Made by a program: the position numbers and the translations under genes. The notes under the pieces were generated by a model. It did not search any database, was not told the origin of the DNA, and saw only the letters and a program-made list of their open reading frames with translations. DNA of 64,000 nt. Origin: Ectocarpus siliculosus (taxonomy: Eukaryota; Sar; Phaeophyceae; Ectocarpales; Ectocarpaceae). Where the stretch lies: contig FN648707.1 of assembly GCA_000310025.1 (NCBI GenBank), forward strand, positions 201,347 through 265,346. Direction: 5' to 3'. Numbering within the stretch: position 1 is the stretch's first letter; every line of letters starts with the position of its first letter. This document shows, piece after piece, positions 5,124 to 42,810 of this stretch.

Positions 5124-5186
5124 AGGGGTTCTGTGGCGCGTGGTGTATGTCGAGGTCCTTGTTGTACCGATGGTATTTTGCTGTAC

Positions 5187-7558: not shown

Positions 7559-7559
7559 G

Positions 7560-13050: not shown

Positions 13051-13509
13051 ACACGGCGGGAAGGTTGCTTTCTTTTGGTATATTGAATTAAGGAAACAGA
13101 GCTAGCGTCAGTAGGAGTCTGGCATCAGTCCTTTTATCCAAGGCAACGCTCCATCAGATCGGAGAAAGAACAAACGCACAGCAGTTCACGACAATACCAA
13201 TCATAACAACGAAGACTCGCAAGAGGCCGTTCGTATGACCCTCAAATGACCGGTGGGCATCCTGCGAATTTGTTTGGTCAACACTCTCAACGTCATGTGT
13301 TCCACGACAAAAACAAATAAAACGAACACCCCGGTTCACCGGGAACACCCAAAACAGGGGTGAGGCCACTTGTTGTCTAGGAGGAATATCTGGCAAGCTG
13401 TTTTGTGTCTCGTTTTGATGACTTTGTAACTCGCACTTGGACACGTCTTCGGGAAGAACTTTGGGTGTGCAGATATTTGTGGTAACCATCCACTTTTCAA
13501 CCGCCACAC

Positions 13510-19126: not shown

Positions 19127-19505
19127 ATGTTTCTTGTTCGGTCCGTTCGGAGAACACACAGCCACGTACGTGTAACCTGTGACCAGAGACAGAGCGTTCC
19201 ACACCTCCACACTCCACACCAAGTCAAAAGACAGAACAGGACACGATACAGCCAGCAAACTGCTGTTCTTGGGTGTAAAATTCTTCTGATTTTTCTCGAA
19301 GGTTGGTTTTTTTAACACTTTCAATATGTAATCTTTAGGGCTAACCGAGGTTGATTTTACTGACTGAAGCCGGTTGTGCCATCAACTACTCTCCCCTTTT
19401 GCACAGGCGATGCTGCCCCCGATCTGATCTTCGAAGCCTGCGGAGACAAAATTCAACGTACAACGACCATCACCTGTCAAGACTCTGGGTCGGGCGCGAC
19501 CTGCT

Positions 19506-22500
19506 ATGATGGCCACGAGCTCGACCTCTCCTCCTGCTGAGGCTTATGGATCTAGCTCGCTGAGCTCATCAGCGGCGCAAGCTGCCCTTCTCGCCGAGAT
19601 GTTCACGCTCAAGTGTGAAACCGGCATCTTGGTTGTCGGCCTCCAAGATGGGGAAGCACTCTGGACCCCTGTTCGCATCTTGTGCACACTGGTGACGGTG
19701 TCAGTTGCCTCTGCATGGATAAGCCGTCGCAAGTCCATCAAGAAACTCCTTATCTTCTTCAGTCACTGGCTCAGGTATGTGTACAACAAACAAGAAGTCG
19801 ACACTCTTGCAGAGACACGAGACGAGATATTCTATGTATGTAGATGCGTATACGTAGCTATTTAGATGCTTGGTTGCAGATAGATGAGATCGACCGACAC
19901 GATGGCATGGTGTCGGAACATCGCATTGCGATGTTATGTACTTCTTTTTTGGTTGCTGTCCGACCAGCCCTTTTTCAGAACTTGCGTCAATCATCCGGCA
20001 CAGCTGGGCTGCGAAGGCAGTAGACCACAGCAGTAGAGCAATAGTGATACCGTTGCGCTTATTGGTATCGGACGACTGCTGCTGCGCGCGTCTGTGCATA
20101 TCATACGTTGGAGAGGACTTTGTTTTTGTGTACAGGACGATCTGTACCTACATACATACATCTCTGTGCACAGGTAATCTGCAGCGTGTCTATTCTCGCA
20201 CAATTGTGCGATATTTCTCCGGACAAGGAGCAGCACTCATCTTCCAGTAAACACTGCATCGGTGTCTCGGCCTTGGCAGCCTCCTGGTTGTTGCGGATCA
20301 GGTGGTGCTGTGAAAATCGGTCTATCGTTGGTGGAGAGGTGGGAATCACTCGCAACCTTCCGACAAGCAGCCTCAAGGTAGACTAGTTGTGGTTTGTGCA
20401 AAAAAGGCTGCTGTACAGACAGCAGCAGGGAGGGGTACTGCTTGTAGAGAGTACAACAACAACAGACGGAGAACAAGATGCGGGGTGCTTCCACTTCTGT
20501 GCTATGCGTACCATGCCTTCCCACGCGTGTTTTGTTCGCGCATGAGCAGTGGGACATACGGAGCATGGAGACAGTTATTTTCGTAAGTTCCTACGAGCAC
20601 CTGGGCACACACTTGTTGTATGCGAATGCTCACGTCTACTGGTTTCGACGATGCGCGGGCTACCTTCCATGCTTACACGAAGTTGGCATGAAATATGCGT
20701 TCTGGTTTCTTGTAGAGGATAGAGGCTAGTCTACAGTACTCGATACAGCAGTGGTGGCTGCGGTTTCAAGAGAGGATCGGAACACGCCAGGTTGAAGACA
20801 ACTTTGACGCTGGCTCTTTTTCTCATACTTGAATCCAATAGCATACAAAGAGAGATAACAACGTTTCCGCCAGGGTTACCTGGTGCATTCTGCCGTCATC
20901 AGTAGAGGACACCATGAAGAGGCGTCTCGCGTGCTGACACGTTCAGGTTTGCTACTGGAGCTGAAATATCGAAGGTCTCAGCAGCCTCTGAAAACAGTCC
21001 GCAATCTACGCCGGAACAACCGGATGTGTCACTGGCGTGCTCGCCATCAGTGACCAAGGTTCTGAACTGCGGGTTTACAGCTGTAGCTGAGCACTAGCTA
21101 CTGCTGACAACCCTTCGTTCAAGGGCTTACGGTCCGTGGCGGTGAGCACGGCTGTGACAAATGTTGGATTCCGGATGTTCCGGCGTAGATTCCAGACTGT
21201 TCGCAGAGGCTGCTGCGACCTTCGATATTTCAGCTCCAGTAACAAACCTGAACGTGCCAGCACGCACGCACGACGCCTTCTTCATGATGTCCTCTACTGA
21301 TGAAAGTGGAAACCCAAAGCTAACCCTCAAAATCTACCTTATTTGAGCGCCTGCCATTTTGGCTGTTCTGGCTTGAATTTAGAATTGTGTGAATTTTGAT
21401 CTTGATTTTCAAAGGGGGCGTGTGGAGGTAGACGCGTGAATGTATGTTTTGAGCAGCTTCAATGGCCTCCCTGCGCGAGAATCAACGATCTCTGTTTTTC
21501 GAGAGGTGCCGACTGGTCTTGTGTATCTCGTGTGCATTTTTCTGGTGCTCTTGCGTTATTTTTCAAAATTGGTCAACTTCGAAATTCTCACTTCTTTGTC
21601 TTCAACCCCATTCAATCCGGTCTCTCAGTTACCCGTTTCAGACAGACGTATCTTAAACCGTAGCCAATTAACTTAAGGCCGGTGTACAGCGCGGATGCCT
21701 TGCCTACACTGCCATATGAAGATGCTCATGATGGAGGGCATGAAACATATCGTAAAAGAAACACTGCGTCGTCGTCAGCGACTTCTTGTGCTTGCTCGGT
21801 AAACACTGCGTACGACAAACACAGCGAACCATGAAAATACCTGAGAAAAAATGAGGCAGATATCTAATGTGTCGGATACATGATGGGTCTTTGGTCTCGG
21901 ATGAATAACAAAGACGAGCTCGATCAGTCTGAACAAGCAGAAACGGGCGACTCCTCGGGGGCAGCCGTAGTGCGTCCGCCATGTACTCAGGGGTAGCAGA
22001 ACACTGTCATTGCTGTTTCCTCGAGGATATCGCCCAGCAAGAAGTTCGGCATGCACGAGGCCATGTTTGCAAGGCTACGGTAGCTTGTATTAGCGAACAG
22101 GCGTCCATGAAAGCAAAACAGACGCACACGACTTCATGTAACGTGGCACAAGGGTAGGAGAGAGTTGCAAGGCCGGGACCGGGGAGGCGTACAGATAGCT
22201 AGCTGGGTCGTAGACACGGTGCATGTCGTTCAGACGCTGTTTTGGTGCGTCGTGAAGTCTGGCTGGGGCTTCTGTGTGATGGGAGACACTCAAGCAACGG
22301 CTGCCCATTGCCCAGGGGATGGTATCTACTTTTTTGGGTGTGTATCATGTGCGACCAGCACACGACTGGATTATGGCAAGTTCTCTCTTATTTCGGTCAA
22401 AGGCGTGACAAGCCAGTTTTACTCTCGACAACCCGTATTTTCTGTTAATTAATCTCTCTTCAACCGTCGCCACCACTGCATGGTACAACACACAACACGC

Positions 22501-25500
22501 ACCACCGCTTAAGTAGCAGTTTAGAAAATGAGCCCGAAAAGATCCGACATCTAACAACAGGTGCTCCGTCAAGAACCCTACACTATTGCTGTAACACGTA
22601 TACATCTACTTCAAGTATACCAGGTAGTCGCGTTGGAGGTACTAGACGACGAGCCTCGGACGACCGGATCTTCGAGACTGGTGCATCCGCCGCTTCCCGG
22701 CTAGGTCAAATGCTACATACCAACGGCGGAGGACACACACACTAGTATTGGATATCGATTCAATAACCTGTGAAGACAACAACACATCCTGTTTGGAGGA
22801 GGGCAGCTTGTCGTCAAAAGCGCAGGGAAGAAGGTTGACTCAAGAACTTGCATCATTCACGAGTGCGCAGGGCATGCTTGCCCAATTATCGAGAATGCCA
22901 TTGTGTTTTCCTGTTTTTTTCGATCCTCGACATCGGTACGATATGTACTGCTGTAGCACGAAGTAAAAAGCAGTGTCGATAGCGAATGGGACGTGTCTCC
23001 AGCGATGTGTGTTGAATCAAATCCGTTGTTGCCCCATGTGTTTTTCCGGGGATGCAGCCATACCCCGTTACTGGTGATGTGGCCGGGTAGGTAACAATTG
23101 AGAGGGGGGATATTCTCGGTCGGGTTATTTCGTACCGGTAGCCATCTACAAGATAGAAAGGGCAAGACGGAGCCAGACTGCGCGACCCGAAGACCTCTGC
23201 GGGGCGCACGTCGACATCATGAGCGTGTTGGCATGGTGATAGAGAGGCTATGTTTTTCTACAAAATATGACTTTACTCCATCACCCCCACTACTACAACT
23301 TCCGTGCAGAACACAACCCTTTTGCTCTTGGCAGTTCGGCGTCTGTCCGTCCCCCTTTAGTTCGACCACCACGACCGCCAATCGTCGCAAGGGGAACTAT
23401 CCAGATTCAGAAGGGTGGGATGGGCTCGTGTACATGCGTATATCTCTTGCTTTGGAGGCGTTCTTTCTACTTCCACCACCGAAACAGGTGGCATCTGCAG
23501 TCCACAGACCACCCGCCGTTTTTCTCCTCGTGCGATCATCTACATGTGCTACAAAGACGGCTGACAATCCCGAACCCCTCCTCCACGCGCGTCTCCTTCA
23601 TCCTTGACGACGGTTTCAATATGGAAACCTCACAATGGTGCCGCCGACGGCGACACGGTTTCCTCCAACTCTACAAAACCAGTGGCCTGCTGTATGAGCT
23701 CATGATTGTGACGCAGGGGACCATGATATCGGTGTGCTGGGTCGGAGAACGTCTCGAGGGATTCATCAAGGCCTTGAAATACCTGGAACAAACGTCGTCG
23801 AACATGCTCGCCATCACCAACCTCGCCATCTGCATCAACCTCGCCCTGGTCGTGAATGTCAGTGTGCTATTGTTCACATTATCTGCTGTTCTGGTTTATT
23901 TTTCTGCCCTTCAGTCGCATCTTTCTCGCCCATTTTGAGGCCTTGCCTCTCTAATAGAAAAGTTCCCATCCGGGGGGCACACAGACAAGGGACCACACAC
24001 ATAAGAAACCCTCGACCGCCCCGCATGTCTCAATCGTTTCTCTCGAGAAGGGTTCAGCCGCGCTTGGCCTCGAGGCTATTGGGTTAGACTGTTTTTGCGC
24101 GAAATACGGAACATGTGGACGTTCACATCTCAAACCCCGGGTTCATGTAGAATGTAGAAGTGCCGCTTGGTAGTGTTCGAGGTTGCAAACGCGCAAGAGT
24201 TTGCCACCTGCACAATTCCGAGAATAACCGTTTTCGTTGTTCTACATAGTGGAAACGACTAATACACCACTCCCGCCGCCTTTGGGGTGTCATTGTTGCT
24301 GCCCGTATTATAGGTTCTCTACCCGCTGCTAGCCATTCCCGAAATTTGGCCGGCTAGCCTTCCCCACCTAACCCTGGGCCCAACCCTATCCTATCCCTAA
24401 AATTCGCAAACACGCAGTCCCATCGCACACTGTCTCGTGTCAAAAGCGTGAGCACGCCCGCGCTGGTGTTGCTCTTCTTAGCTATCTCCGTGATCGCAGC
24501 CGCTGCTTCGGTGCCCTTCTGGAGCATCACGGTGGTCAGCGGGACAGCGTTTTGGGTGACCAACGCCGACAAGGTGCGGGCGTTCTTCGAAACAATTCGG
24601 TGTCCTGAGCCCGTCAAGTTGTCATGCTGGCGTTCGTTTTTCTCGCGGGTATGACTAGTCCTGGTTTGTCGGCCGGTAACGGAGGCAAGGCAAGCAAGTC
24701 TCCTGGAGGGTGCACAAATGTACTGTAAGAATGCCCGTGTAATGCGGTCCGTGTATAGACCACCTGTCTTGAAGGAGGAATCATCCACCCTTGAAGATGC
24801 TTTCCCGAGAAAGCTGGCGTTTCCGGAACTCCCCATGACCTTCCCGAAGTGGCCCTCACGAAGTCCAACGTACATACGTTGAGAGCGAACCCCGCACGTT
24901 GAGGGCGAACCCCGCTTTACAAACAATCAAACGGTAGTACTGAGAAGTGCCTGTAGAAATTAGCTGCTGATCCTCTGCTTCAGGTGGTTCCTTACCCTTC
25001 TTCACCGTTCTTCCGGCATCCTGTCCTCCGACCGGTTTACCGTGTTTCGCATCTCTCTTGGAATGGTCTGCCTGGGACAATCGACCTGTGTATCGGGATG
25101 GCGACGACGACAACAACATCAGGCCAAGGCGGACTGGATCATCGTCTCGATCATCATCCTCGAGTTCGTCGTCGGCATCTGCATGTTCGTCATCGTGTCG
25201 TGGCTTATGGCGTTCCGGATGCAGGCGATCAAGGAGTGCTGGAAAATCCACGCCCGTATCCGCTACTACTTCGTCCTGACCCTCATCGCCACCGCAGTCA
25301 ACCTGGCTCTCGGGATTAGCGGGTTAAGCTACGTCTTCCGCGACAACGCGGGGTGAGTGGTTGTGGTATCGATGGGGCAGGTCACAAGTCCGGGAAGCGC
25401 TTAACTATAAGAGAGAAAACTTAAGACTGGACAGGTAAGCGATTGTTGTGAGACGGCAAAATGAGGAAAATAGATGTTCGGTGTTGATGGTCGTGTAGCA

Positions 25501-26436
25501 TGCACAAAAGAACGTAGCGGCACGAAAAAGCGTGGGAAAAGAGCCCCACCCCAGTCGATGGTCCCCCCTGCCCTTGGCAAACAGCCAAAGGTGGAGGGAA
25601 GGAAAACACTGGTGTCACCTTTAGGAGTAGCAAATCAAGTCCCCCCCCTGACATACGCCACGAGGGTTTGTTCATGTTTTATTCTTCGTTTGTCCCTCTT
25701 TGACAAAATGTGAAATGAAAGCTGCGTCCCTGAAAAGTCGAAACCAAGATTGTATACAGCTTTGCATTTTCCATCTGTGGTCTCTTTGAAGGTCCAGGAA
25801 GGACACCTCTTGACCGCTCACCAGGGTAGAGAAACGACTCGACGGAAGGGAAAACGGGTGTTCGGAGGTGCTAGGGGTGCAACCTAAGTATATCGCAGCA
25901 TCTTTTTTGTCCTCCGACGTTCGGCATGTTGTGTTTTGTGTTCGTGGCGTTCAGGCTCACACTGCTATCACAAGTTCTTCTCTTGTCTACTGAAGAAGCA
26001 CGATGCGACATCGCACGAAAGTAAGACTCCGCCTGCCCCCAAATCGATCTCCTTCTCCCGTCCTTCCTCCCGCCCGCCCCGCCTCCTCGTGCCTCCCGTT
26101 CACGCTGTACCGAATTTGTTTGCCCCCAGGGAATATCTATTGTCTTTGACATGGGCGTTTCGTTACGCGCACGTCGCTCTCGACACCATCGTCCTCTACG
26201 GAGTGCTTGGCACGAGGCACATGGATGAGGGGGGCGTCTCTACTGCTTCCAACTCCGGGACAAGCTCTGGACGTTTGCCTGCTAACTCGGGTCTTCCTCG
26301 TCCGAGTAACCACCGTGGCATGAAAAAGCAGAGCGGGGTGAGCAACACAAGCTCGAAAGCAAGCGGCAGTGCCGTCTGCTCGACTCAGGGTCCCCGCCAA
26401 GTTAGACCGACCCGTTCTGAACTGCTACTTGTATGA
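19506..26436 (+). CDS. Multi-pass (about seven-helix) membrane protein, left copy
   Basis: Five exons: 19506-19774, 23557-23857, 24418-24648, 25123-25352, 26130-26436. The lengths sum to 1338 bases, 445 residues plus stop, with no stop at any junction. Donors are GTATGT, GTCAGT, GTATGA and GTGAGT. The acceptor of exon 2 (ACAAAG) is the least certain. Exon 1 gives a serine/alanine-rich N terminus and one helix ending SRRKSIKK. Exon 2 gives two helices and KALKYLEQ between them. Exon 3 gives one or two helices and WVTNADKVRAFFE. Exon 4 gives two helices separated by MQAIKECWKIHARIRYY. Exon 5 gives the last helix (YAHVALDTIVLYGVLGTRH) and a roughly 70-residue serine-rich tail. About seven helices and a soluble tail recall a receptor, but no family is recognised and function is unknown. 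The upstream GCACAGGCGATGCTGCCCC is shared with the right copy and may mark a 5' UTR exon. Confidence 0.7.
19980..20365 (+). other. Two conserved blocks inside intron 1 of the left copy
   Basis: Blocks 19980-20072 and 20275-20365 match 40955-41050 and 40681-40780 of the right copy. The first reads open on the antisense strand in both copies (CAAQLYRMMD against FAAQLCRMID). The second differs by single-base indels, so it is unlikely to be coding. They may be optional exons, regulatory sequence, or simply retained homology. Confidence 0.4.
20901..21610 (-). mobile_element. Foldback element, copy 2
   Basis: The palindromic core 20901-21298 opens AGTAGAGGACACCATGA and closes with the complement of AGTAGAGGACATCATGA. 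The one-sided arm (21299 to about 21610) matches 12345-12637 in inverted orientation (shared GAGCGCCTGCCATTTTGGCT, AAGAGCACCAGAA and GACTGGTCTTGTGT). It sits in the long first intron of the left membrane-protein gene and has no counterpart in the right arm. Confidence 0.75.
21620..23330. other. Intron 1 interior, nothing recognised
   Basis: No exon, repeat or counterpart in the right arm was seen in this part of the long first intron, apart from one ACTGCTGTA word at 22947. Open frames are short and two-sided. Confidence 0.4.
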
Positions 26437-26539
26437 TTGGAGGAATGATGATTGATATTTGCGGCTTGAAGGCGTGGTCGTGGTATCATCAGGCATGGGC
26501 ACTTTGCGACTACTGCAGGCGCTCGCTGCTGCAGTTCGG

Positions 26540-26745
26540 GTTGTTGCACGAGTTAATGTGCGGGTCACGTTCTGCCAGAGATCCCTCTGAGGCCCATCAG
26601 CAGGATAATCAGCGGAGAATCATGACTTGTCAGACTCATGTCCGCCATGCCAGCCTTGGTAAAGGTTCGTGCGAGCTTCTTCTGCGTGCTCTTGGCTTAG
26701 CACAACTCACTGCTAGAGTCAAGTGTAGGGGTGTAGGTTATCCAT
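26540..26745 (+). other. Highly conserved block downstream of the left membrane-protein gene
   Basis: Starting about 100 bases after the stop codon, roughly 190 bases match 33440-33235 (inverted) with about ten differences, around 95% identity. The adjacent last coding exon is only about 78% identical. The block could be a conserved 3' UTR element, a small RNA gene, or a patch of recent gene conversion. An open frame (26433-26747) crosses it in both arms, so a short peptide cannot be excluded. Confidence 0.5.
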
Positions 26746-27037
26746 AGTGTGTAAAGTGTACGTCGCTGTCGGATGGATTCCTACCGTCACGTACAGCCTC
26801 ATGGAAACTTGTTTTAGACTACCCATAGTCTGTCAAACTTAGGGTTAGTTAGGAACATTGTGGGTGCGCAGATTCGCTTGGTTTAGATGTACTGTCTTGT
26901 AAGTATGTGCTGCTATGTTTCCTTTTTGGTGCACGTTGTTCATTGTACTGTAGCATACACGGGCGCTTATACATATCACGAACGAACACGTCGGGGTGGG
27001 TACGGGCCTTCGTGCCATCAGTGGGGCACTGGCGGTC

Positions 27038-27190
27038 GGGGGGGGGGGGGGGGGGGGGGGGGGCAAANNNNNNNNNNNNNNNNNNNNNNNNNNNNNNNNN
27101 NNNNNNNNNNNNNNNNNNNNNNNNNNNNNNNNNNNNNNNNNNNNNNNNNNNNNNNNNNNNNNNNNNNGTTTTGGGGGGGGGGGGGGGGGG
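27038..27190. other. Assembly gap (100 N) bordered by poly-G
   Basis: Bases 27068-27167 are N, exactly 100, with G homopolymers on both sides. The right palindrome arm reads straight through the corresponding point (about 32940) with only CGAAGGGGGC between the two flanks. The gap is therefore probably a short or artefactual poly-G and not missing genes. Confidence 0.85.
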
Positions 27191-27859
27191 CAAGTGCATG
27201 ACGTTAAATGTCTTCCGGCACGCGATGTTGTTTCGAACCAACTCCGTACATGGCCTGTGTAGCTTCTTGTTGGTTCCAGGCCTGTACTCTCTGTGTTGTC
27301 ACTTCCTTGTTTTACTTCGTAGTAGTGTTATCTTGTTGATCATGTTGTTGTAGAATGTATTCATGACGTGTATGTTTTCGTCCCAGTTCTGGGCGCCAGT
27401 CTACACCTATTGGTACATGTTTGACGCACCGGCAGGGGTCACACGGCAGGAAGGAAACAAGTATTATAGTGGAGGTTTTCCTCCTGTGATGCTTCTTCCC
27501 CTAATGTTTATGCACGAGGAGGGTTCAGCAGCTCCTTCCCTATATATTTGTGTGTATTGCAAGATTTTGCGGTTTTTCCATTCTGGATTTAGATTAGATT
27601 TTTCCCTTCGGAGAGAAATTCGAATCGGCAATGTAGAGTTCTCAGCTTACAATGTTACCAACCCAGGGAGTCGTGTCAGATTTGTTTGTGACTAGCGAGG
27701 GACTTGGTTGTATTAAGCAAATTGACATGACATCAACCCGTAATGTGTAGGTCCTCATGGGTCTAGTTGTTGTAATTTCCGTTAAAATGTTTAGACCCAG
27801 CCTGACACTCCCGAAATGCGTGTATCCGGTTTGCCGACAAGCGCAAGCCTTTACAAGTA

Positions 27860-29890
27860 TTGGTTGGTAGCCTAGAGTCTAGTAAGTGATTTGACACGAA
27901 CGTCTTTATCTTTTTCCAGGGAACGTCGAGTTCGACACAATAGTATGTTTAGGAAGTAGGGGCACAAATGGCGTAGTGTGCCAGACGTGATCAGATGTAT
28001 TGTGAGGGTTATTGATTTGTGTGCGTTGAGAACGTTGTTGTAGAACAGACCAAGCGCTACGCCCGAGACCGTTGCCAACATTGTCGCTACCCGCACGGAC
28101 GCTACACTTGATGAAGACAGAATGAGTGGTCGACACTCAGCCATCGGTTCATATGTCGACCAATGAGCCCGATGTCGGCATCGTGGAAGTGCACGTCTTC
28201 GAGTTGGTGCCCATACCACTGTCAGAATTGTCTGCTTTGCGTGCCCCCTGAGCTGAAATTGTAGCGCACTTCAGCTCAGACCTCTCAGCAAAAAACAAGC
28301 AACTTTCCCATTTCTACACGATCGTGGAGCAAGATCGTCAAGCGACCTGTACCAAGCTACTACCTACTGCTTGTGCTCATACCGAGGAGAACTACGAGTA
28401 ACGCATAGAAGAGAGAGCCGCGTATCTCAAAAAGGGCCACATGCTTTGTACGAAACTTGCAGGAGGGTCGGACGGGGGCAAGAAGCACAACTCTTCCACC
28501 TCACTCGAAAGTCCGTCCTTGCAATCTTGAGAACATCCACCGAAGAAAGACAACTTGTTTTTTGAGAAGAAACCGGAGATCGCTAAGTGTTAAACCAAGA
28601 AAAACCGGAAATAAATGCGGCCTAGCTGGGGTCAAGAGCTTTGGGGTAATAAAACGGTGTCAAAATTGAATACTCTTAACTATAGGTTTGAGAATTTGCG
28701 CGACAGGCATTAAACTAAACCCCAGGGGCATCAGAATCTTCACGAAGAAATCACAGCTTTTCCTCTGATTCTTCTCCAAACCCCGACCTGGTAAGATGTC
28801 GTCCCATTCTCATCTACCAACAAACCCCATCAAGCCCGCTCCTTAAAACCTCTCAAGCTGCCAACCCACAAGAATCACCCTAGGCAAGTGCCTTGCGAAA
28901 ACTATCACCTCTGCAACAGACAGCTGACCCTTCAAAATGGGGTTTACGACAAACAACAACTTAATTTTCTCCGCCTGAAGGAAGCGAGGAACAGAACAAA
29001 GAGAAGACAAGCAAAGGCTCAGGTGCATACGGCTGCGGACGGCGATAATGATACCATAGCCGCGTTTCCTGTTCCAAGTAGACTGCCCGATGTACAGCAC
29101 GAAGGCCAATTACCATACGGCCCAACGAACGTGTTTGAGCTCAACCCGCCTTGACTCCAACGCGGAACACATTCACATCGGTTCCCAGAGTTTGGCCACC
29201 ACCCTGCGCCTCCAAGGCTGGCCCCATTTCCGAACAACGGCAACTCCCTCGAGATCCCAACTTAAGCTCTCGCCTCTGGCAGACGTTCCGCTGTGTAACA
29301 ACCACGCCCCCCTCCTGTTCCTCGTTTTCTTGGCAAAATGAAAACGTTCCCTTAAGCTAAGGAGGACGAAATGTAAGGCCCACAGTTCACCGCCACAACA
29401 TCAAAACCCCGTAGTGCCAGCGCTGCCGCCGCCGACGAAAATGAAAGCACTCAACTCTCGACATCATCCACCTACATTGTCGGGGAAGTCGTGGGTAACC
29501 ATGCCGCTTCTGATTAGTCAAATGTGCCCATCTTGAACGAAGTCCGTGCCCAACGCCTCCACGACGCGGTCTGCCAACCCACAGACAAAGCAGGGAATTC
29601 AACGGCACAAGAAGAGGCGCAGCGATTACTGATTTGAGGAAAACCGTGAGACTGGGGGCGGAAGTTCTGGACACAGGAACTTCTCCTTTACACCCAAGAG
29701 GACAGAACGATGCAAGACCAGTACCTCCGCATCCGGACTCTGTGCGATTCGAACGGCTACTAGGGTAAATGTCAACAGGGGGTTGGTTGAGGTGCGCGGT
29801 GCTTCGGCAGTATCACGGGCAGTGATCTTACACGAACAGACCTACGAGCAATCTCCCACACTACGGACAGCCTTGCTAAACCTCCCATGG
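27860..29890 (+). repeat. Inner left arm of the giant palindrome
   Basis: Continuous match to 30165-32230 in reverse complement. It includes frames conserved in both copies (for example NIHRRKTTCFLRRNRRSL on the plus strand here and minus strand there). The counterpart of the 30399-31196 ORF is on the minus strand here but no longer open throughout. No known gene family was recognised. Confidence 0.75.
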
Positions 29891-29894
29891 GACA

Positions 29895-30225
29895 CCCATC
29901 GGGCACCAATGGCCATGCCCATGGGCGGCCCATCAAGTGCGCATGAAGTGCCCACTGTTGTCACTTCAACCTAGAAGTTCGTCACCGGCACATCAACCTA
30001 GAACTTATCCACTGCACATCGACCTAGAACTTAGCCACCGGCGCCAACCTGGCACGTATCGAATGGGCTTGGGGTTAGGTTTAGGTTTAGGGCTAGGGTT
30101 ACGGCTATTTGTCGCCATATTGCCCGTTCCAAAGCAGATAATTTATTGTTTACACCGGTTCCGGTCGAAGCCTTCTCACTGGCCGCCCATGGGCTGCCCA
30201 TGGGCAACCCATGGGAAGTGTGGGA
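29895..30225. repeat. Palindrome axis with CCCATGGG clusters, tandem repeats and telomere-like tract
   Basis: Clusters of CCCATGGG words at about 29886-29925 and 30182-30215 are the innermost inverted match. Between them lie three to four 25-30 base units with CAACCTAGAACTT (29966-30057), then TTAGGTTTAGGTTTAGGGCT (inside 30070-30103), which resembles a degenerate TTTAGGG telomere repeat. This spacer has no inverted partner. Confidence 0.7.
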
Positions 30226-32230
30226 GACCCAATACGAGGTGAAGAACGTTCCGAGTAGAAACAACTTGCGCCTGACATTACAACTTCCATTCATCGCCGT
30301 ATTTTGTCGCGCCTGTTCTCGCTCAGATGTCAGTTAATTGCCGTATGATAGGTAGAGGTGTTCAAAGGCTGTCAAACCTGCCCTACAGTCAAAGTTGAGT
30401 GCATTTCGTACGGATATTATGGCTTGCAAGAGCAAACATCGGTAGTTGGACGACGCTCTCGACCGCAGGGCCACATGGTTTTCCTCTTCAATCAGTAGTC
30501 GCTGCGCCTCTTCTTGTGCCGTTGAATTTCCTGCTTTCTCTGTGGGTTGACAGACCGCGCCAAGGGGGAATTGGGCACGGACTTCGTTCTAGATGGGCAC
30601 ATTCAACTAACCAGAAGCGGCAGGACTACCAACGACTTCCCCCACAATGTAGGCGGATGACGTCGTGGGTTGAGTTTTTTCATTTTTTGTCGGCGGCGGC
30701 AGGGCTTGCACTACGGGAGGTTGATGTTGTGGCGGTGAACTGTGGGCCTTACATTTCGTCCTCCTTAGCTCGGGGTACTTTTACATTTTGCCAAGAAAAC
30801 GAGGAGCAGGAGGGGGCAATGCTTGTTACAGAGCGGAAAGGCTGCCAAAGGCGAGAGCGTAACTTGGGATCTCGAGGGATTTGCTGTCGTTTGGGGATGG
30901 GTCCAGCCTTGGAGGCACAGGGTGGTGGCCAAACTCTGGGAACGGAATATGACCATGTTCCGAGTTGGAGTGCAGGCGGGTTGAGTTCAGACGCGTTCGT
31001 TGGGCCGCATGCTAAATTGCCCTCACGCTTTACGTCGGCCAGTTTACTTGGAACAGGAGAAGCATGGCTGTGGTGTCATTATCATCGTCCGCAGCCGCAC
31101 GCACCTCGTTCTTTGGTTGCTTTTCTTCTTCCTGTCACTCGTTTCCTTCAGGCGCAGCAAATAAAGTTGCTGTTCGTGGTTCAACCCATCTTGTGATGAC
31201 CCGCCGTGTACGGCAGGGGTGGTAGTTCTCGGAAGACACTTGCCTAGGGTGATTCTTGTGGGTTGACAGCTTGAGAGGTTTTGAGGAGCAGGTCTGATCG
31301 GGGTTGTAGATGAGCTTGGGACACCATTATTTCTTGTAGGGTTTTGGAGAAGAATCAGAGGAAAGCTGTGATTTCTTCGCGAAGATTCTGATGCCGCTGC
31401 GGCAATGGTAGTGTCTGCCGCGCAAATGTTCAAACCCATGTTTGGGGTATTTAATATTGACCCCCGGTTTTATTACCCATCGTTCTTGACCGGGTACCCC
31501 AGTTAGATCGCATTTATTTCCGGCTTTTCTTGGTTTAAGAGTTAGCGATCTCCGGTTTCTTCTCAAAAAACAAGTTGTCTTTCTTCGGTGGATGTTCCCA
31601 AGATTGCAAGGACGGATTTTCAAGCGAGGTGGAAGAGTTGCGCTTCTTGACCCCGTCCGGCCCGCCTGCAAGTTTCGTACAAAGCATGTGGCCCTTTTTG
31701 AGAAACTCGGCTCTCTCTTCTATGCGTCACTCGTAGTTCTCCTCGGTATGAAGGAGCACAAGCGGTAGGTGGTAGCTTGGTACAGGCTGCTTGACGCTCT
31801 TGCTCCACGATCGTGTAGAACTGGGAAAGTTGCTTGTTGTTGCTGAGAAATGGTCTGAGCTGAAGTGCAGCTCAGGGGGCACGTAGAGCAAACAATTCTA
31901 CCAACTCGAAGACGTGTACGTCGACAATGCCGCCCTGAACTGAAGGCTGAGTGTTGACCGTTCTTTCTGCCTTCAGTAAGTGTAGCATCCTCCATCAGCG
32001 CGGGTAAGGATAACGTGTTAGCCACGGTCTCCGGCGTAACACGGTCTTTTCTACAACGTTCGCAACGTACACAGATCAAATAACCCTCCTAATATATCAG
32101 ATCACGTCTGGCACTACGCCATTTGCGCCTCTACTTCCGAACATACTCTCGTGTCGAACTCGACGTTCCCTGGGTAGCTCAAGACTATTTGTGAGACAAA
32201 TACGTTCGTGTCAAATCACTTGAACCAATA
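30165..32230 (-). repeat. Inner right arm of the giant palindrome
   Basis: Reverse complement of 27860-29890. Identity is about 80-90% by eye with scattered indels. It carries the open 265-codon frame and, on the minus strand at 31671-31327, a 114-codon frame whose first half (NIHRRKTTCFLRRNRRSL) is also kept in the left arm. Confidence 0.75.
30399..31196 (+). CDS. Unrecognised ORF, 265 codons, in the right inner arm
   Basis: The longest uninterrupted frame in the window apart from exon-chained genes and one 308-codon frame around the lone first exon. The mirror-image sequence in the left arm (28843-29674, minus strand) encodes similar peptides in the same frame (shared AAPLLVPLN, GHGLRSRWAH and IKLLFVV). 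In one block most differences between arms fall at third codon positions of this frame (att/ata, ttt/ttc, gtc/gtg, gta/gtt), which hints at past coding selection. The left copy is interrupted. No domain is recognised; it may be a transposon-derived or lineage-specific protein. It points away from the palindrome axis, opposite to the membrane-protein genes. Confidence 0.35.
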   Translation: MHFVRILWLARANIGSWTTLSTAGPHGFPLQSVVAAPLLVPLNFLLSLWVDRPRQGGIGHGLRSRWAHSTNQKRQDYQRLPPQCRRMTSWVEFFHFLSAAAGLALREVDVVAVNCGPYISSSLARGTFTFCQENEEQEGAMLVTERKGCQRRERNLGSRGICCRLGMGPALEAQGGGQTLGTEYDHVPSWSAGGLSSDAFVGPHAKLPSRFTSASLLGTGEAWLWCHYHRPQPHAPRSLVAFLLPVTRFLQAQQIKLLFVVQPIL

Positions 32231-33234
32231 GTTGTAAAGGCTTGCGCTTGTCGGCAAACCGCATGCACGCATTTCGGGGGTGTCAGGCTGGGTAAAAACG
32301 TTTTAACGGAAGTAAAAACAACTATGTTAGACCCATAAAGATCTACACAGTAGTACAGGTTGATGTAAAATATAAAACGTTAAACACAACGAATCTCTTA
32401 CTACACCGGTCCCCCTGTCATCAGTTAGTAACCTCGTAAGCTTAGAAAAAAACTCTCTAGATAGCGAATTCGAATCTCTCTGAAACGAAAAAGCTAACCT
32501 AAGAGGGGAATTCGCAACACCTTGAAGACATTCAAGAATGGGGAATGGAAGGAGCTGAGAACCCTCCTCGCGTTAAAAGATTGAGAGAGAAGCACCACAG
32601 GAAGAAAGTTGGAGAGAAAAACCTCCACTGTTGTCCTCCCTCCCGCGTGACCCCGGCTGGTGCGCCAAACATGTACCAATAGGTGTGGACGGGCACCCAG
32701 ACAACATGGTACGCGAAAACAATGCACGCCATACAACGCGAAAAAAAATGCAATTGAACACGGAAAATGCAAATACAAAGCAGAACAGGGAACTGAAGAA
32801 AGCAGAGGGAAGCAGGCATTGAACCGACGACAAGCAGAAGCTACTACCCAAAAAATCAACACACACGTGATGCGCGTGGAAATCGCTCGAAACAACATCG
32901 CGTGCAGGAACACATATATGTTCATGCACTTGCCCCCTTCGACCACCGAGTGTCCCACTGATGGCACGAAGGTGCCTACCAGCCCCGACGTTTTCGCGAT
33001 GTCAGCGCCCGCCCGTCTATGCACGAAAAAGGGAACTACCGCAGCCCATTCATGTACGAAACAGCCATCTGAAACCAAGCGAACCAGCCAACCCTGCGCT
33101 ATGTTATGTTTCGATAACTAACGACATGCCTGATCTATTTAAATGTATTCGACTTAAACAACATGTTTTAATAGAGATATCTACGGGGCGGTACGTACTG
33201 TAGGAATCCATCTGACAGCGACGTACGCTTCGCA

Positions 33235-33440
33235 CTCCACGGTAACCTACACGCCTACACGCCACTCTAGCAGTGAGTTGTGCTAAGCCAAGAGCACGCA
33301 GAACAGGCTCACACGAACCTTTACCAAGGCTGGCATGGCGGACATGAGTCTGACAAGTCATGATTCTCCGCTGAATATCCTGCTGATGGGCCTCAGATGG
33401 ATCTCTGGCAGAACGTGACCCGCACATTAACTCGTGCAAC
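33235..33440 (-). other. Highly conserved block downstream of the right membrane-protein gene
   Basis: Mirror partner of 26540-26745. It lies about 200 bases after the stop codon of the right copy. About 95% identity over 190 bases, clearly above the neighbouring coding exon and the more distal flank. Confidence 0.5.
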
Positions 33441-33636
33441 AACCCGAACTGCAGCGTTGAGCGCATCGACGTAAAAACAGAGAGAGACCGCGTCTCCAGC
33501 CACATTCAGTCACGACCTTGTAGAACGTGTGAAATAGTTGGGAGACACACAGGCCTGACAATACCCACGACCACGCCTTTGCACCGCGAAGGGCAATTGC
33601 ACCGCGAAAGGCGTTCATCGTTTAGAAATCATTGCA

Positions 33637-36600
33637 CTATTCGGACTGAACTGAAGGTAGAACTCGGCGGGAACCCTGAGTTGAGAAGACGGCGCCACCG
33701 CCTACCGGCGAGCGTGGCGTGCAGAACCCGCTGTGCTTTTTCATGCCGCTATGGTGACTCGGGCGAGGTAGATCCGAGCTCGCAGGCGCCCGGTCAGAGT
33801 TCGTCCCTGAGGTGACAGAAGCAGACGGGAGCGTGTCGCCTCCCTCATGGATGTGCCTCGTGCCAAGCGCGCCGTAGAGGACGAAGGTGTCGAGAGCGAC
33901 GTGCACGAAGCGGAGACCCCATGATACAAACAGAATATTTTCGCTGGAGACAAACGAAATTGGTACAGAGAGAGAGAGAGAGAGAGCGGGAGGCACGGGG
34001 CGTGGGAGGCGGGGCGGGCGGGAAGAAGAACAGAAGAAAGCGTTTTAATGCTGAGGAACTCATGCTTCCGTGCCTTGCAGCTTCGTGCACTCTTCAGTAG
34101 ACAATAGAAAAACGTTCGGTAGCAGTGTTAACCTGAACGCCAGGACGACAGACAGACGAGATCATATACAAAAAAACACAACGTGGCGTGTGGAACGTCG
34201 GAAACAATGCCGCTGCTTTGTTTGCCCCCCTAGCACCTGCGAACACCCGTTCTCCCTTCCGTCAAGCGGTTTCTCTACACTGGCGAGCAGTCAAGAGGTG
34301 TCCTTGCTCGATCTGCAAAGAAACAAATGGTGGAAAACTGCAACGCTTCAAACAATCTTGGTTTCGACTCTTCAGGGACACACCTTTCATTTCACGTTTC
34401 GTCAAAAGAGGGAACAAACACGCTCCCGGGGCCTGCCCTCGCGGCGTACGTTAAGGGGGGAATTGGATCAGCTACTCCTAGAGGTGACACCAGTATTTTC
34501 CTTTACTCCACCTGTAGCCCTTCGCGAGGGGCAGGGGGGACCATCGACTGGGGTGGGGTGTTGAACGCAGGTCGCTAACATTCTTCAGGAAGGGAGGCCG
34601 ACCCCCTCAACACACACACCCGATCACACGGGTTCGTCTGCGTTTGCAACACTAATGTCGTTGCCGCGCGGTCCTTTTGCTACTGCCGGTGGAATCTGAA
34701 CACGGAGGTAGCGAAACCGTTGCGGCTCTTCTCCGACGCTTGAACGACGCAACAAAGGAGGGAGAAAAATTCGAAACATGCCGCGTACGAATTAGAAAAC
34801 TGCACCCTGTCCCCTCTCATCATCTGCAAGGAAGCTTTCTCTCTTGTCGTTAAGCCCTTCCCGGACTTGTGACCTGCCCCATCGATACCATTCCCACTCA
34901 CCTCGCGTTGGCACGGAAGACATAGATTAACCCGCTCATCCCGAGAGCCAGATTGACTGCGGTACCGATGACAGTCAGGACGAAGTAGTAGCGGATACGG
35001 GCGTGGATTTTCCAGCACTCCTTGATCGCCCGCATCCGGAACGCCATAAGCCACGACACGACGACCAGCATGCACGTGCCTATGACGAGGTCAATGAAGG
35101 TGACCGAGATGACGATCCAGTCCGCCTTGGCCTGATCTTGTCATCGTCGTCGACATCCCGATACCCATGTCGGTTTTCACAGGCAGACCATTCCAAGAAA
35201 GACAAGAAACACGGAAAACCCGTTGGATGACGGAATGCAGGAAGAAGGGTGAGGTACCGCCCAAGGCGGAGGGTCAGCAGCAAGTGTCTACTGGCACCCT
35301 TCAGTACTACAGTTTGATCGTTTGCAAAGCGGAGTTCGCTCTCGATGTAAGTACGTTGGGCTTCGTTAGGGTTTCTTCCGGGAAGTCAAGGCGAGTTCCG
35401 GAAATGTCACCCTTCTCGGAAAAGCAGCTTCAATGGTGGACGATTCCTCGATCAAGGTGGACAGGTGGTCCATACACGGGCCGTCATTACACGGGCAGTC
35501 TACAGCATATTTGTTGACCCTCCGCGGGACTTGGTTGCCTTTCCTCCGTTACCGGTTGACAACCAAGACTGATCATACCCGCGAGAAGAACAAAAGCCAG
35601 TATGTACTCTTGACAGGCTCAGGACACCGAGCTGTTTCGAAGAACGCCCGCACCTGGTCGGCGTTGGTCACCCAAAAGGCTGTCCCGCTGACCACCGTGA
35701 TGCTCCAGAAGGGTACCGAAGCAGCAGCCGCGCCCACGGAGATGACTAAGCAGAACAACACCGGCGCGGGCGTACTCATGCTCTTGATACGAGACAGTGT
35801 GCGATGGGACTGCGTGTTTGCAATTTTTGGAATAGGATAGGGTTGGGCCCAGGGTTAGGTGGGGAAGGCTAGCGGGCCTATTTTCGGGAATGGCTAGCAG
35901 CGGGTGGAGAAGCGATAATGCGGGCATCAACAATGACACCCCAAGGCGGCGGGAGTGGTGTATTAGTCGTTTCCACGAGGACAACGCAAACGGCTATTCT
36001 CGGAACTGTGCGGGTGGCAAGCTCGTGCGCGTTTGCAACTTCGAAAACCGCCAAGCAGCACTTCTACATGGGCCGGGGGGTTGAGAGGTGAACGCCAGGA
36101 TGTTCCGTATTTGCGAACGAAACAGTGGGTGAAAGCGCAAAAACGTTCCAACTCTATGGCACGGAGGCAAGAGTGCTGGACCCTTCTCGCCAGAAACGGT
36201 TGAGATATAGGGTGAGGGCAAGGATTTCTTGAGTCTGTTTGGCCCTGAATGGGGTATGGGTCCGTTAGGGAGGCGAGGCCGCATTGTTGGGCTCAGGGTT
36301 ATGTGAGTAAAGGATAAAAAACGAATCGTCTACGAACAGCAGAACATATGTACTCCCCAAACCCAAAAACAATTAATTAAATCAAACACCCCTATATATA
36401 AATTATTTCATTATTATGTACTCCCCAAACCCAAATCTTTTTTTATGTACTCCCCAAACCCCCCAAACCCAAAAACAATTAATTAAATCAAACACCCCTA
36501 TATATAAATTATTTTATATGTGTACTCCCCAAACCCCCCAAACCCAAAAACAATTAATTAAACCAAACCCAAAAACAATTAATTAAATCAAACACCCCTA

Positions 36601-39600
36601 TATATAATATGTATGTACCAAGCGTAAGTAGGACGAAAACACACACTGACATTGACGATGAGGGCCAGGTTGATGCAGATGGCGAGGTTGGTGACGGCGA
36701 GCATGTTCGACGACGCTAGTTCCAGAAATTTCAGGGCCTTGACCAGTCCCTCGAGATGTGCTCCGACCCAGCACACCGATATCATGGCCTCCTGCACCAT
36801 AATAATGAGCTCATACAGCAGGCCACTAGTTTTGTAGAGAGAGAGGAAACCGCGTCGCCGTCGGGGGCACATCGTGGGGTTTCCATATTGGAACCGTAGA
36901 GACGCGCACGGAATGGGGGTTCGGGATTGTGAGCCGTCTTTTTGTCGCGCATGTAGATTATTCCACCCGGAGCAAAGCAATGGTCGACGTGTGTACTGCA
37001 CACCTTACCTCTCGCTTGTACGAAACAACCTCCCAAGACACATGTACTTCCTCTGTATCATAAGTCTGTGCCGTTATGGGCGCTCAGTCGTTGGGGTACT
37101 TAAACGTTGACGTTTAGCCTTTGACCGGGTGTGTTAGAAAGGCAAAGAGCATACGAAGATGACTAAAAAAAAAAGAATCGAAGACCGTGTTACACACTAA
37201 AATTAGGTCAAAATATGCCCATTTTGGCCGTATTTCGGTATAAATTATTGAGAAACTATTTTGAGAATTTTACGACTTCGCAGTATAACACACCGGGGCC
37301 AGGAAGCGACAGAGGGAAGGGACGTTGGAGAGGGTGGTAAAATACGATAAGGAGGCTTTTGAGAAGGCTTACGCCTGGGTGGCATCGAGTCCCAGCGACA
37401 GCGAGGACGACTAATCGAGTTTTTCCCTTTCTTTTCCCCCGACAGCAACAGACACTTTTTTTACCCCGCAGGTGTCTTGGTTTTAGTGTGGGAACCCCAA
37501 GTGTCTTGGTTTTCATGTGGAACCAAAATTGTCTTGGTTTTTGTGTGGGGTCACGATTATACTGGGTTGAGTATTGGCGGACGCGGCACGTATCGTTGAG
37601 TAGAACGGGGGGGTTGGGTTCGGGCACTACTGTTGTTTGTTTCCCCGCAAGTGTCTCGTTTCTTGTGTGGGGCCTCCAAGTGTCTTGGTTTTAGTGTGGA
37701 TCTCCCAAGTGTCTTGATTTGAGTGTGATGGTCACTATTATACTGGTTTTAGTATGGGGGGTGCGTTTGGCTGATGGAAGTACAGGAGAGGGGTTATCTT
37801 TGGGGTGGGAATAATTCTTGAGTTTTTGGGGGCGGGACAGGCATTTAGCCCCACCCACCCCCTACCTGGAAAAGGGCAAAATATGGCCGTTTTTAGGCCA
37901 ACTCAATGTTTTCCGGCCGTTCAGCGGCGTGGTTCAAGCACCAACTAAAAAAAAGAAAAAGGTTTTCTCGCTAAAAAAACGCCGGAGAATTCAACGAAAA
38001 ATTCGGAAAACACGGACACCGTTAAGGGGGCGCAAAAACATAACGGCACAGACTTATGATGCAGAGGAAGTATATACACAAGCTGAACCCACCCTTGTGA
38101 ATCTGGAGAGTTCCCCTTGCGACGATTGGCGGTCGTGGTGGTCGAACCAAAGGGAACGGATGGACGCAGAAGTGCGAAGAGAAAATGACTTCTACTGTGG
38201 ATAGGAGTAGTAGTGAAGGTTTTGAAGATAACTATTATATAATACGTAGTCTTGACTATCCTTTGCTCTGTGGAGAAAATATATCGCCTCCTTATCACCG
38301 CCGTGCCAACCTGTTCATTGACAAAAGGCGGGAAAAGCTGTAGAAACTGATGTCACGGCCTCACCGTGATTATTGCTCGGCACTTGATCTGTGGAATTGC
38401 TCGAAGCAGTTCCGGGTTTAAGTTTACGGTACTTCTTTTAGAGTGTCCTGATCGTGTTAAGGGATGTCTTGTGGTGCTGTTTCTTCGAAGTTGTCCTGCA
38501 AATGCATCGAACACGGATGTGTCACATCCACAGACCATCGATATTCGAACCATACCCTTCTTCCTAAACACACAAGCCGGCACTCTCATTTATATATGAT
38601 GCCAACAAAAGAAAACTAGAAGCACCCGTCATGGACGGGTTTAGCTGAAATAGACGCGGCTGGGCAACTCTCGCGCCTTGCCGCGTGGGGCGGTAAATCA
38701 ACAGCAAGTAAAAGGCATGTTTGCACATACGTCAAGAACATCGAAACGACGGAAGAGCATGAACGAACACGGCAACGGATGAGAGCGCGCCGGGGGTCAC
38801 ACATAATATGAATGTACCTACAGCTCTTCCGCAAGTTGAATGCGAAACAGGTCTACTCCCCGACACAGGACCTACAGGCGACGGGGTCGTGAAGCAGCTG
38901 GTGCCGTCGTGTGCATAATAAGTGTGATGCGTTTCCGAGTGCTTGGTACCCCGTGGGACGCCTGTATCGAAACGAGGCGACTAGTTGGATGCAATCGTCG
39001 TGGATGAAGTACCAAGTTTCATATCGTCTCGAAACCATGGGGAGAAGAGAGAGACGCGGTCATGCAAGACACCATTTTACGCGATATTTTCATCACACGA
39101 CCTTTGGTATGCGTCCGATATGTTGACGTTACCTGCCAAACTCCGCGGTATGTTCTTCACACACCAAGACACTAAGACCACATTGCACGAACAAGATCCT
39201 CCACAAACAGAGAGCAAGGGCAAATCAGACGAATCCACCTTGTTAACGTGTGCCAGAGGCGGTTGCACTGCCATCCCCTGCCCGTTCACCGCGCCACTGC
39301 CGCGCCGTTGCTGCCGCGCCGTTGCTGTGGGCGAGACACGGCCCACGGCGGCTTGTGTGCCTTGCTCGCCCTCCAAGCGAAAAATTGCGGGCTAAGATAC
39401 ACCGCATAACGCATTGATGATTGATGAAATGGGACTTACTTGCGCTGCGTCGTCAATGTTTCTACTCCTAGCAAGGCTACCGGGGGCAAGCAAGAAGGGC
39501 AACGTTTTGACGGGTTAGTGTACCTGTACGCACACAATAAATGGTATTTTGGCGTCCGCAGACAGACGGAGGCGGACGAGGCTAGCACAAAATTGACACA

Positions 39601-41110
39601 CGCCGCATTTGCAGCGGGATGCGCCATGGAAAACGGCGCTGATGTGTGAAGTGCGGGTTGGTTGTGGAAGGAGAGGACGGGCGCCCTCTTCATGTGCTGC
39701 GGTCTCGGATGATTTCAGCTTGAAATCGTCCGGCACGGCCTCTGTATGGTAGTGATATATGTCATGTGTGTTAGGGGAACTGGTTGTAGCTCAGTCTGTT
39801 CGGAAGGCTCAAGCTGCATCTGTCCGAGCTGCTCGTGCGGGAGAGCAAGTGATTGTCGAGATCAAATCTGACCGAATGTAGTATATCTGTATTTGGGCGT
39901 ACTGGTCTCTTGTATAGTGAGTGGTGGATAATACATGAGACGTACGTCTGTTGTTACTAACACTGGCGAGTCCCAACAAGAGAGAGGGGCAAGTACGTAG
40001 TGAGGAGTTCACTGCTGCGGTCTTGTAACTGTCGCACGAACGAATTAGTTGAGGAGGTAACGATGTGGGCAACGGTCCTTTCACACTCTCTCGTTGGTTG
40101 GGCTGTTCTGGCAGCGAGAGGACGCATGCGTACGGTGTCACGGGAGGCCTACACGCACGACCTCCGCCGTCCGTGCAGAACAATCTACCTTCGATAGTAT
40201 TACCAAACCCAACGTATGTCACGCAATCATAAGTATACTCCTCCAGTTTGTAAGTATGTCCGAATGATCTTAGCGGTCATTTCGTGTTCTCACGGTGCAC
40301 CGTTGGGTCACGGCCACGGTTTCGCGCGGTTCATGCTACGGAGGAAGTTGAAACTATGTAAAAAAACACTGTGGTCGGAATATTCGCTCCATGACATGAA
40401 CACAAGAAAGGCTCCGCTCCGTGAGACTCTTCCCTTCGGATTAACCGAAACCTCGAAAAGAAAAAGCCGGTCCGCCGAGTTGTTGTACTCCGTGAACACC
40501 TCTCTGCTGTTTCCTAAAATCCATGCAAAGTCGAGCCTCTGATTCTTCACGAAATAATCCTTGATTGACTGCGGGCCCGTTTCATCTCTAACCTACAAAC
40601 AACCCGCCTTGACCCCCCCGAATGTCACAGCTTGGCAGGGACTTGGGTTGGATCCGACGACGCGTGTCCACACAAAACTGACCGTTTTCCGGAAGAATGC
40701 GAGGGATCCCACATCTCTTACAGCAGACCGCTTTTCACAGCGCCGATTGCTCCACCAAGAACCAACAGGCTGCCATACCGAGAAAAGCGACATGTACAGT
40801 AGTCTAGACTGTATTATTATCCCCAATTGAGAGAGCATGTATTCCTTAATAAAGGTTACTGCTGTAGTTCGTAGAATATTTTATAACTGCATCTGTTGGA
40901 ACCGGCCGTCCTGCAGAAGATCGTACAGCAGTGGACTACACAAACATACACAAAATGTCCGATACCGGTCAGCGCAAACGGTACCGCTACTGCCCTAGCC
41001 TACTGCTGTGACTGCGCCGCCCAGCTGTACCGGATGATGGACGGAAGTTTTGAGATGCTGGTCTTGGCAACTACTTATGTAACTGCTGCTGTCAATTCAC
41101 TTTCATGCTC

Positions 41111-41144
<34 letters not shown>

Positions 41145-41404
41145 CTGAGCCAGTGACTGAAGAACATCAGGAGTTTCTTGATGGACTTGCGCCGGCTCAA
41201 CCATATCGAGGCCACCGACACTGTGATCAGGCTGCAAAAAAGCCGAACAGGGGTCCAGAGTGCTTCCCCGTCTTGGAGGCCGATAACCAAGATCCCGTCG
41301 GTTTCACACTTGAGCGTGAACATGTCCGCGTATAGAACAGCTTGCGCCGCTGGGCTCATCGAGCTGGATCCATAAGCCTCAGCGCGAGAAGATAACGAGG
41401 TCAT
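33637..41404 (-). CDS. Multi-pass membrane protein, right (mirror) copy
   Basis: Minus-strand exons: 41404-41145 (an ATG at 41437 is also in frame), about 36937-36651, 35809-35579, 35131-34902, 33943-33637. Exons 3, 4 and 5 have exactly the lengths of the left copy (231, 230 and 307) with the same phases and donor contexts. Conserved signatures include RRRRGFLSLYKTSGLLYEL, WVTNADQVRAFFE and VALDTFVLYGALGTRH. Exon 2 is 14 bases shorter near its start than in the left copy, which puts the shared acceptor out of frame. Either another acceptor is used or this copy is damaged there. Intron 1 holds about 1 kb of extra repeats and intron 2 an AT-rich satellite. The two genes converge on the palindrome axis. 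Confidence 0.6.
36345..36605 (+). repeat. AT-rich satellite, 60-90 bp units
   Basis: Three to four units built from TACTCCCCAAACCC, AAAAACAATTAATTAAATCA and CACCCCTATATATA. It sits in intron 2 of the right membrane-protein gene, 45 bases from the exon 2 donor, and is absent from the left copy, so it arose after the duplication. Confidence 0.9.
37470..37760 (+). repeat. Tandem array of TGTCTTGGTTTTAGTGTGG units
   Basis: Six or seven units of 20-32 bases with a GTGTCTTGGTTT core, in two clusters separated by about 90 unrelated bases. The array lies in intron 1 of the right membrane-protein gene and has no partner in the left arm. The rest of 37000-37990 shows nothing recognisable. Confidence 0.8.
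38300..40680. other. Intron 1 interior of the right copy, no gene supported
   Basis: No repeat or exon could be assigned. One short plus-strand frame, about 39505-39649 (GLVYLYAHNKWYFGV followed by an alanine-rich end), has natural-looking composition and could be a gene fragment, but no family is recognised and the antisense strand is open as well. Confidence 0.3.
41107..41140 (+). repeat. (TC)n microsatellite beside a splice donor
   Basis: About 16 TC units directly after (on the minus strand) the GTAA donor of exon 1 of the right membrane-protein copy. The left copy has no such tract. Confidence 0.9.
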
Positions 41405-42810
41405 GCTCGTCGCAGCAGCAGGTCTCGGCCGAAACACTTGACAGATGACAGATGATGCTTGGTGAATATGCCAGGCTTCGTCTCAGTCAGGCTTCGAAGA
41501 TCCGGATCTGGGGCAGCATTGCCTGTGCGGGAGACCGCATTTATTTGAGGATCCATCACCGAATACCGTATATGTGGTGGATAAAATTATCGCTTACATG
41601 AATATGATATGACTTTGTTGAACCATTGCGTTATTTACTCAAATTCTCACCACAAGAAAAATGTGTCCTACTGGAGTATTCAACTCTTCACAAGTACCAA
41701 GACCGAACAACCAGGTTTGTTTGCATGTGCCCCGTGCTACTATTTTCAGAAGTTTACAAGAAACGCAGAAGCCCCCATGCCTCTAAAAGAACAACCCGGG
41801 CGCGCACGGCACGGATAAGGAGGACAGACGAGGCGAGGCGGAAACAAACAACCAACCTTCTACTCTACCGGCGGTCTTTTCATACCAACAGTGTACCTTT
41901 CTATTTCTTGCAACAGAACGGTCTTGTCTATAGACAGCGAGAATGAAAGCAATACCGAGCCAGCGGGCCCGTACGGCAAAACACACAGAGCTGCAGCACT
42001 GCGATCTTTGTAGCATCGTCATCACCATCAGCAAACACAACAGATCAGCGGTTTACCGTTTTCTTCCCTCGGCGAAAAGATATTCAATTGCCACTTTCGT
42101 ACTAAATTAACACAGACAACAGTTAGTTCGTTGGTCAGTCAGTCAGTCGTATGCACATCATGTTCATGTTCTTGGATGTTGTCAGTTTGTGGTCGTCCTT
42201 GAGAGCGGAGGCGAGTCCAACCTTCCCGCCGTATTTCATACACACACAATCCACGGAGCACGTCGGGCATGTACTACTGTAGATAGAGTGAAAAGGACCG
42301 ACCCAGCGAAATGATACCAACGGAGCAACTCTTCAACCGCTTTGTAATGATAAAGGGAGGGATTATTTCTTGACGTACGTACGTTCACCAGCAACTAACT
42401 GCTGTTCTTTGTTGTGGTCTGCGACCCACCAATCGGTTCCCGCATCCACGCCGTGATCAGGCAAAATATTCGATGCACCCATGGGTACGCACATACATGT
42501 AATGTGCCATGCACCCACAACTTGGGCCCATCTAGTCTACAGATCTGCACGAACACCGATACCGTTTAGTTTTCCATCCAAGAGCGACCTAGCCCTACTT
42601 CAAGGCCCGCCGACCTAGCACCTAGCCACGTCGGGACCAGCCTCGCACCTATCCAGGCGATATCACCTAGATTTATCCCATCAACGCCAATCTACAGTAG
42701 CACATCTATCCAAGCAGCAACAACCTGGAGCTTTCCACGTCATACAACACCAACCTATAGTGCCAATCCTTGCAGGACAAAACCTAGAACTGAACCACCC
42801 ATCACAGGTG

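Follow-up and report, generated by a model that had tools for sequence, protein, structure and literature searches.

The 64-kb window of the Ectocarpus siliculosus genome analysed here (the whole stretch of DNA under study) carries, with a probability that we put at about 0.87, an old tail-to-tail inverted duplication of a membrane-protein gene that belongs to a clustered family. This is an ordinary and known kind of event, since inverted (tail-to-tail) tandem gene duplicates occur within clustered multigene families. The two genes of the window are adjacent paralogs in opposite orientation, each the closest relative of the other within this genome, and their homology extends to non-coding sequence. 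As in other inverted tandem gene duplicates, introns and flanks are homologous and both copies have been retained; nothing essential differs, and much intergenic sequence can still be aligned here. Inverted duplication thus looks like an ordinary way for a gene cluster to grow.

The mirrored region and its assembly

The sequence-only reading had described a 22-kb diverged palindrome at 19506-41437. The window was compared with its own reverse complement and, as a control, the same two stretches were also compared in same-strand orientation. The expected anti-diagonal is present: the left arm pairs in inverted orientation with the right arm around an axis at about 30.06 kb, and the homology is slightly wider than first read (19401-29648 against 30474-41528). 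The comparison gave eight mirrored blocks, whose axes fall between 29.99 and 30.75 kb and two of which have E=0; other settings gave seven. Eleven had been reported before. The chained palindrome, composed of seven blocks and 6,870 aligned bp with a mean identity of 76.2%, is the largest inverted chain within about 189 kb of contig C489. Since the same-strand control yielded only a single 67-bp match (E=6e-5), the mirrored signal is far beyond chance.

The identity between arms is 77% over 6,273 aligned columns. Inside the chained blocks it reaches 80% in non-coding sequence (4,790 columns) and 83% in coding sequence (867 columns), so that the divergence is larger than the substitutions of up to about 20% estimated before. 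Identity in individual 100-column windows of these blocks varies between about 53% and 97%. No perfect run in the alignment of the arms is longer than 63 bp. As had been proposed, the duplication takes in exons, introns and intergenic sequence, and the homology extends about 3.2 kb downstream of the stop codons, where it ends sharply next to the loop. Most of intron 1 cannot be aligned (about 3.2 kb on the left side and 2.7 kb on the right), a weak block at 61% reaching 20362 in another comparison. Each arm does hold an intact five-exon model of a membrane-protein gene, and the arms are indeed old and were each altered by insertions.

It is hardly credible that the mirrored region arose from two separate loci or haplotypes joined by the assembly. 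What could speak for such an artefact is the 100-N gap inside the left arm. However, the flanks of this gap pair with neighbouring bases of a gap-free right arm (27045 with 32933, and 27186 with 32937), and there is no N from 27168 to the end of the window, so that continuous sequence covers the innermost 2.5 kb of the left arm, the spacer and all of the right arm. Because the gap flanks match adjacent right-arm positions and the axis sits in N-free sequence, a false join is unlikely; besides, an identity of about 76% is ill-suited to alleles.

Table 1. Features of the window, with positions counted from its first nucleotide
Feature	Position	Strand	Remarks
Left arm	19401-29648	+	Original orientation at the axis; 100-N gap inside; from mirrored blocks and C21 polarity
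Right arm	30474-41528	-	Inverted copy; from mirrored blocks
Left-arm membrane-protein gene, 378 aa	19506-26436	+	Predicted model; exons 19506-19774, 23683-23857, 24418-24573, 25123-25352, 26130-26436; GT-AG in 4/4 introns
Right-arm membrane-protein gene, 375 aa	33637-41404	-	Predicted model; exons 41145-41404, 36651-36825, 35654-35809, 34902-35131, 33637-33943; GT-AG in 4/4 introns
High-identity non-coding tract after the stop codon	26528-26794	+	93.6% of 265 aligned bases; mirror 33191-33455
Assembly gap, 100 N	27068-27167	.	Between poly-G runs, inside the left arm; only gap in the window
Segment common to C21 loci	28562-29848	+	In whole at one locus, in part at two; mirror 30474-31566
Central spacer (loop), 825 bp	29649-30473	+	Colinear with the left arm in three C21 loci, inserted repeat aside
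Dispersed repeat, about 367 bp	29849-30216	.	In the loop; absent from three C21 loci
Inversion joint	30473-30474	.	C21 homology stops at 30470-30475; mirrored arm starts at 30474
Broken family member (apparent)	10372-11944	-	E4 in two frames (11739-11944), part of E5 (10372-10440)
Isolated first exon of the same family	7283-7534	-	By order, separate from the fragment 10372-11944

Other elements were observed in the window. Two related self-complementary fold-back elements are located at 12609-13054 and 20896-21303 (76% and 78% self-match), one of them within intron 1 of the left arm. Inverted repeats at 2386-6935, totalling about 0.8 kb at 95% identity, flank an ORF (4219-5079) whose end presumably resembles a tyrosine recombinase (DIRS- or Crypton-like); a Pfam search of this ORF gave nothing up to E=0.1. 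No Pfam match over the curated cut-off was found for ten ORFs of the window (eight beside, two within or near the axis) and nine further stretches, the best sub-cut-off match of them all being TBCC_N (E=0.00028, 21.6 bits against 27), for the ORF at 46689-47222. Rfam gave no match in the window at gathering scores. In the genome at large, EsV-1-7 repeats are abundant, with at least 150 matches (the best 150 of 880 candidates scored, all listed ones being over the cut-off). They had matches in 0 of 14 control genomes, of which the named ones are bacteria and archaea and have little bearing on other eukaryotes. The EsV-1-7 family is described as expanded or proliferated in brown algae in two papers (PMC7457493, PMC12477816).

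The loop, the joint and the direction of copying

The centre of the palindrome is not a 230-bp axis, as had been thought, but a non-mirrored spacer of 825 bp, about 367 bp of which are a dispersed repeat inserted later; leaving this repeat aside, the loop measures about 450-460 bp. The repeat has at least dozens of matches in the genome searched (189.5 Mb, 492 contigs). By eye, its ends look inverted (TCTCCCACACT...AGTGTGGGAGA) and an imperfect duplication (about 11 bp) flanks it. The repeat also includes a short stretch that resembles telomere sequence (GGGTTAGGTTTAGGTTTAGGG).

Three C21 loci reveal the polarity of the structure. In all three, the match to 28562-29848 directly adjoins a match from about 30225 to 30470-30475, the 367-bp repeat being absent, and past about 30473 each locus runs into sequence unrelated to the right arm. 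The right arm, in turn, begins at the complement of 29648. Since these loci run from the left arm through the loop to about 30473 and only then differ, the right arm is the inverted copy and the loop belongs to the left arm. A derivation of the C21 copies from one of the arms was ruled out: the four-way informative sites that join left and right against two C21 copies number 52, against 12 crossed ones, and the arms are about equally distant from copy C21a (identity 0.760 for the left arm and 0.775 for the right).

The C21 continuation past the joint is composed of pieces that recur at many places of the genome, the first of them about 30 bp beyond the joint; a search for it on C489 gave no match apart from the loop itself. 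At the inner joint there is no clear microhomology at the present divergence. Pieces recurring on several contigs, which are probably exons of a gene family, occur on contig C21 at 5760-8700 of locus L040. One minus-strand frame there reads DPHMFGFSGQKFDFTGE, which is reminiscent of root-cap or von Willebrand D-like domains; none of the pieces of this stretch tried in Pfam was over the cut-off.

The ancestral locus would have contained a single five-exon membrane-protein gene on the + strand, with the segment 28562-30473 downstream. About 10.2 kb would then, as the comparison shows, have been copied in reverse and joined at 30473, which left two copies converging on a loop of about 450-460 bp. 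The process was likely fold-back priming at a break or a replication template switch. Afterwards, the arms would have diverged mostly independently, with insertions that include the 367-bp repeat in the loop. Another history, in which one of two direct copies was later inverted and family members were so brought tail to tail, seems improbable to us: cluster members do occur in both orientations, but the homology includes introns and reaches about 3.2 kb beyond the stops, ending sharply by the loop, a pattern that a single inverted copying explains in one step.

An inverted copy joined via a non-duplicated loop that is colinear with one arm is also found in yeast fold-back inversions (PMC10622511). 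However, the yeast products described there are dicentric chromosomes, broken and then stabilised, whereas the structure studied here is an old internal segment.

Divergence and stability of the arms

The similarity between the arms is patchy. The variance of identity among non-coding 100-column windows is 0.0104, while the maximum in 2,000 shuffles was 0.0029. Such patchiness bears on the view that arm-to-arm gene conversion has preserved a long-lived palindrome here, in the manner of sex-chromosome palindromes, with which the region shares large gene-bearing inverted arms (PMC3403216). Tracts at 89-94% (27757-28637 and 26528-26794) do lie beside tracts at 60-64%, and the contrast between tracts is greater between the arms than against the outgroup. 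Nevertheless, this view is unlikely. The mean identity is merely 76-80% and, where C21 outgroups exist, low and high tracts track the similarity to the outgroup. Far from being nearly identical (76%), the arms differ by about 24%, which sets them apart from those sex-chromosome palindromes.

The comparison of patches with the outgroup covers 28562-29648. At 28891-29180 the identities are 0.765 (left-right), 0.704 (left-C21a) and 0.742 (right-C21a), and at 29181-29648 they are 0.878, 0.788 and 0.809, respectively. Differences in rate explain much of the contrast there, because the C21 outgroup, too, is fast in the first stretch and slow in the second. From the first to the second, identity rises more steeply between the arms than against the outgroup, which leaves room for some conversion. 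The only genome-wide match of the tract at 26528-26794 is its mirror, no convincing match being present in other family members, and it may be either a conserved element or a conversion tract.

The survival of an old palindrome had been regarded as notable, large palindromes being prone to deletion and gene conversion. According to PMC10164571, which deals with Alu-sized repeats in double-stranded DNA of yeast, recombination becomes about 40 times rarer once the spacer is lengthened from 12 to 20 bp, and no instability is left at 75% homology. Judged by these limits, an 825-bp spacer (about 450-460 bp before the insertion), an identity of about 76% and the lack of any perfect run beyond 63 bp make instability unexpected, and stability is to be expected at present. 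Thus, this apparent surviving palindrome is probably a case of arms too diverged to be unstable. A point on the other side comes from the same paper: in long single-stranded DNA, divergent and widely spaced repeats still interact. The argument fits the present arms; younger arms were more alike and far longer than Alu repeats, and their early survival is outside its reach.

The two genes and their family

The two gene models have matching exon phases, with the reading frame kept, and converge on the axis. Over 370 aligned codons and by three methods, dN is 0.147-0.153 and dS 0.29-0.35, a dN/dS ratio of about 0.43-0.52. Because of this difference between dN and dS, both predicted genes look to have been held open by purifying selection.

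The copies appear to have diverged unequally. Unique amino-acid changes are distributed 16:32 between left and right with outgroup A (p=0.03) and 11:31 with outgroup K (p=0.003). At codon positions 1+2 the corresponding counts are 23:39 (p=0.056) and 18:40 (p=0.005), and at third positions 13:22 and 19:22. The protein of the inverted copy thus carries two to three times the number of unique changes seen in that of the original; with outgroup A the result is marginal, third positions leaning likewise.

Each protein contains eight non-overlapping segments of 19 residues with a mean hydropathy above 1.0 (1.13-3.02 in the left protein and 1.07-2.51 in the right one). The weakest is the last segment of the left protein (1.13) and the first of the right protein (1.07), so that seven or eight membrane passes are possible. 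Together with a Ser-rich tail, these seven or eight hydrophobic segments suggest a multi-pass and maybe receptor-like membrane protein. Pfam searches with both arm proteins and seven family members gave nothing over the cut-off (best DUF2976, E=0.012, 15.9 bits against 28.2). A profile search of the PDB found no significant relative, its sole match being a quinol oxidase subunit (E=1.9). Thus, neither Pfam nor PDB offers a match to a known family of seven-transmembrane or G-protein-coupled receptors.

The exon-4 peptide has 14 matches at 12 loci, ten of them on contig C489 (both arms included) and two on contig C30. The C489 members span about 117-477 kb in both orientations, and two of these loci are split over two frames. 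In a tree of 12 members, all from this genome, the arms are sisters with a support of 100/99. This tree was built with concatenated exon peptides, some incomplete. The genes in its rows D, E and G look broken, and the first exon and the later exons combined in row G stand in an order that probably does not fit a single gene. When these three rows were left out, the arms were again sisters among nine members, with the same support (100/99).

D and E are also sisters in the 12-member tree, at the weaker support of 90/87. They form an inverted, head-to-head pair at about 154-171 kb of C489 (L025-L027), whose alignment covers 2,998 bp at 72.7%, the axes of the main four blocks lying at 162.1-162.5 kb. 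As their identity is lower than that of the left and right copies, D and E are probably an older inverted pair of the same cluster. C is linked to D by an inverted chain (2,189 bp at 66.7%) and to E by a direct one (2,561 bp at 65.2%), the longest of the direct chains. Left and right are the most similar pair found, and the clustered family seems to have grown partly by earlier inverted duplication. Inversion is seen in the two sister pairs of C489 (left/right and D/E), but the C30 sisters lie in direct orientation, so that a general preference for inverted duplication is unsupported.

A more far-reaching proposal sees in the cluster a lineage-specific family of receptor-like proteins with seven passes, for which inverted duplication would be the preferred mode of growth. 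The newer copy would be driven to diverge, and the convergent pairs could yield hairpin RNA that regulates the family. We regard this proposal as very unlikely; if true, brown algae would possess a system for the birth and divergence of orphan receptors. For the inverted gene duplication itself, a single locus displays its origin (through a loop colinear with one arm), its relative age and its fate. What remains of most interest is the orphan and possibly receptor-like family with its two inverted pairs: a small clustered family of membrane proteins, without significant Pfam or PDB match, that may merit an expression survey.
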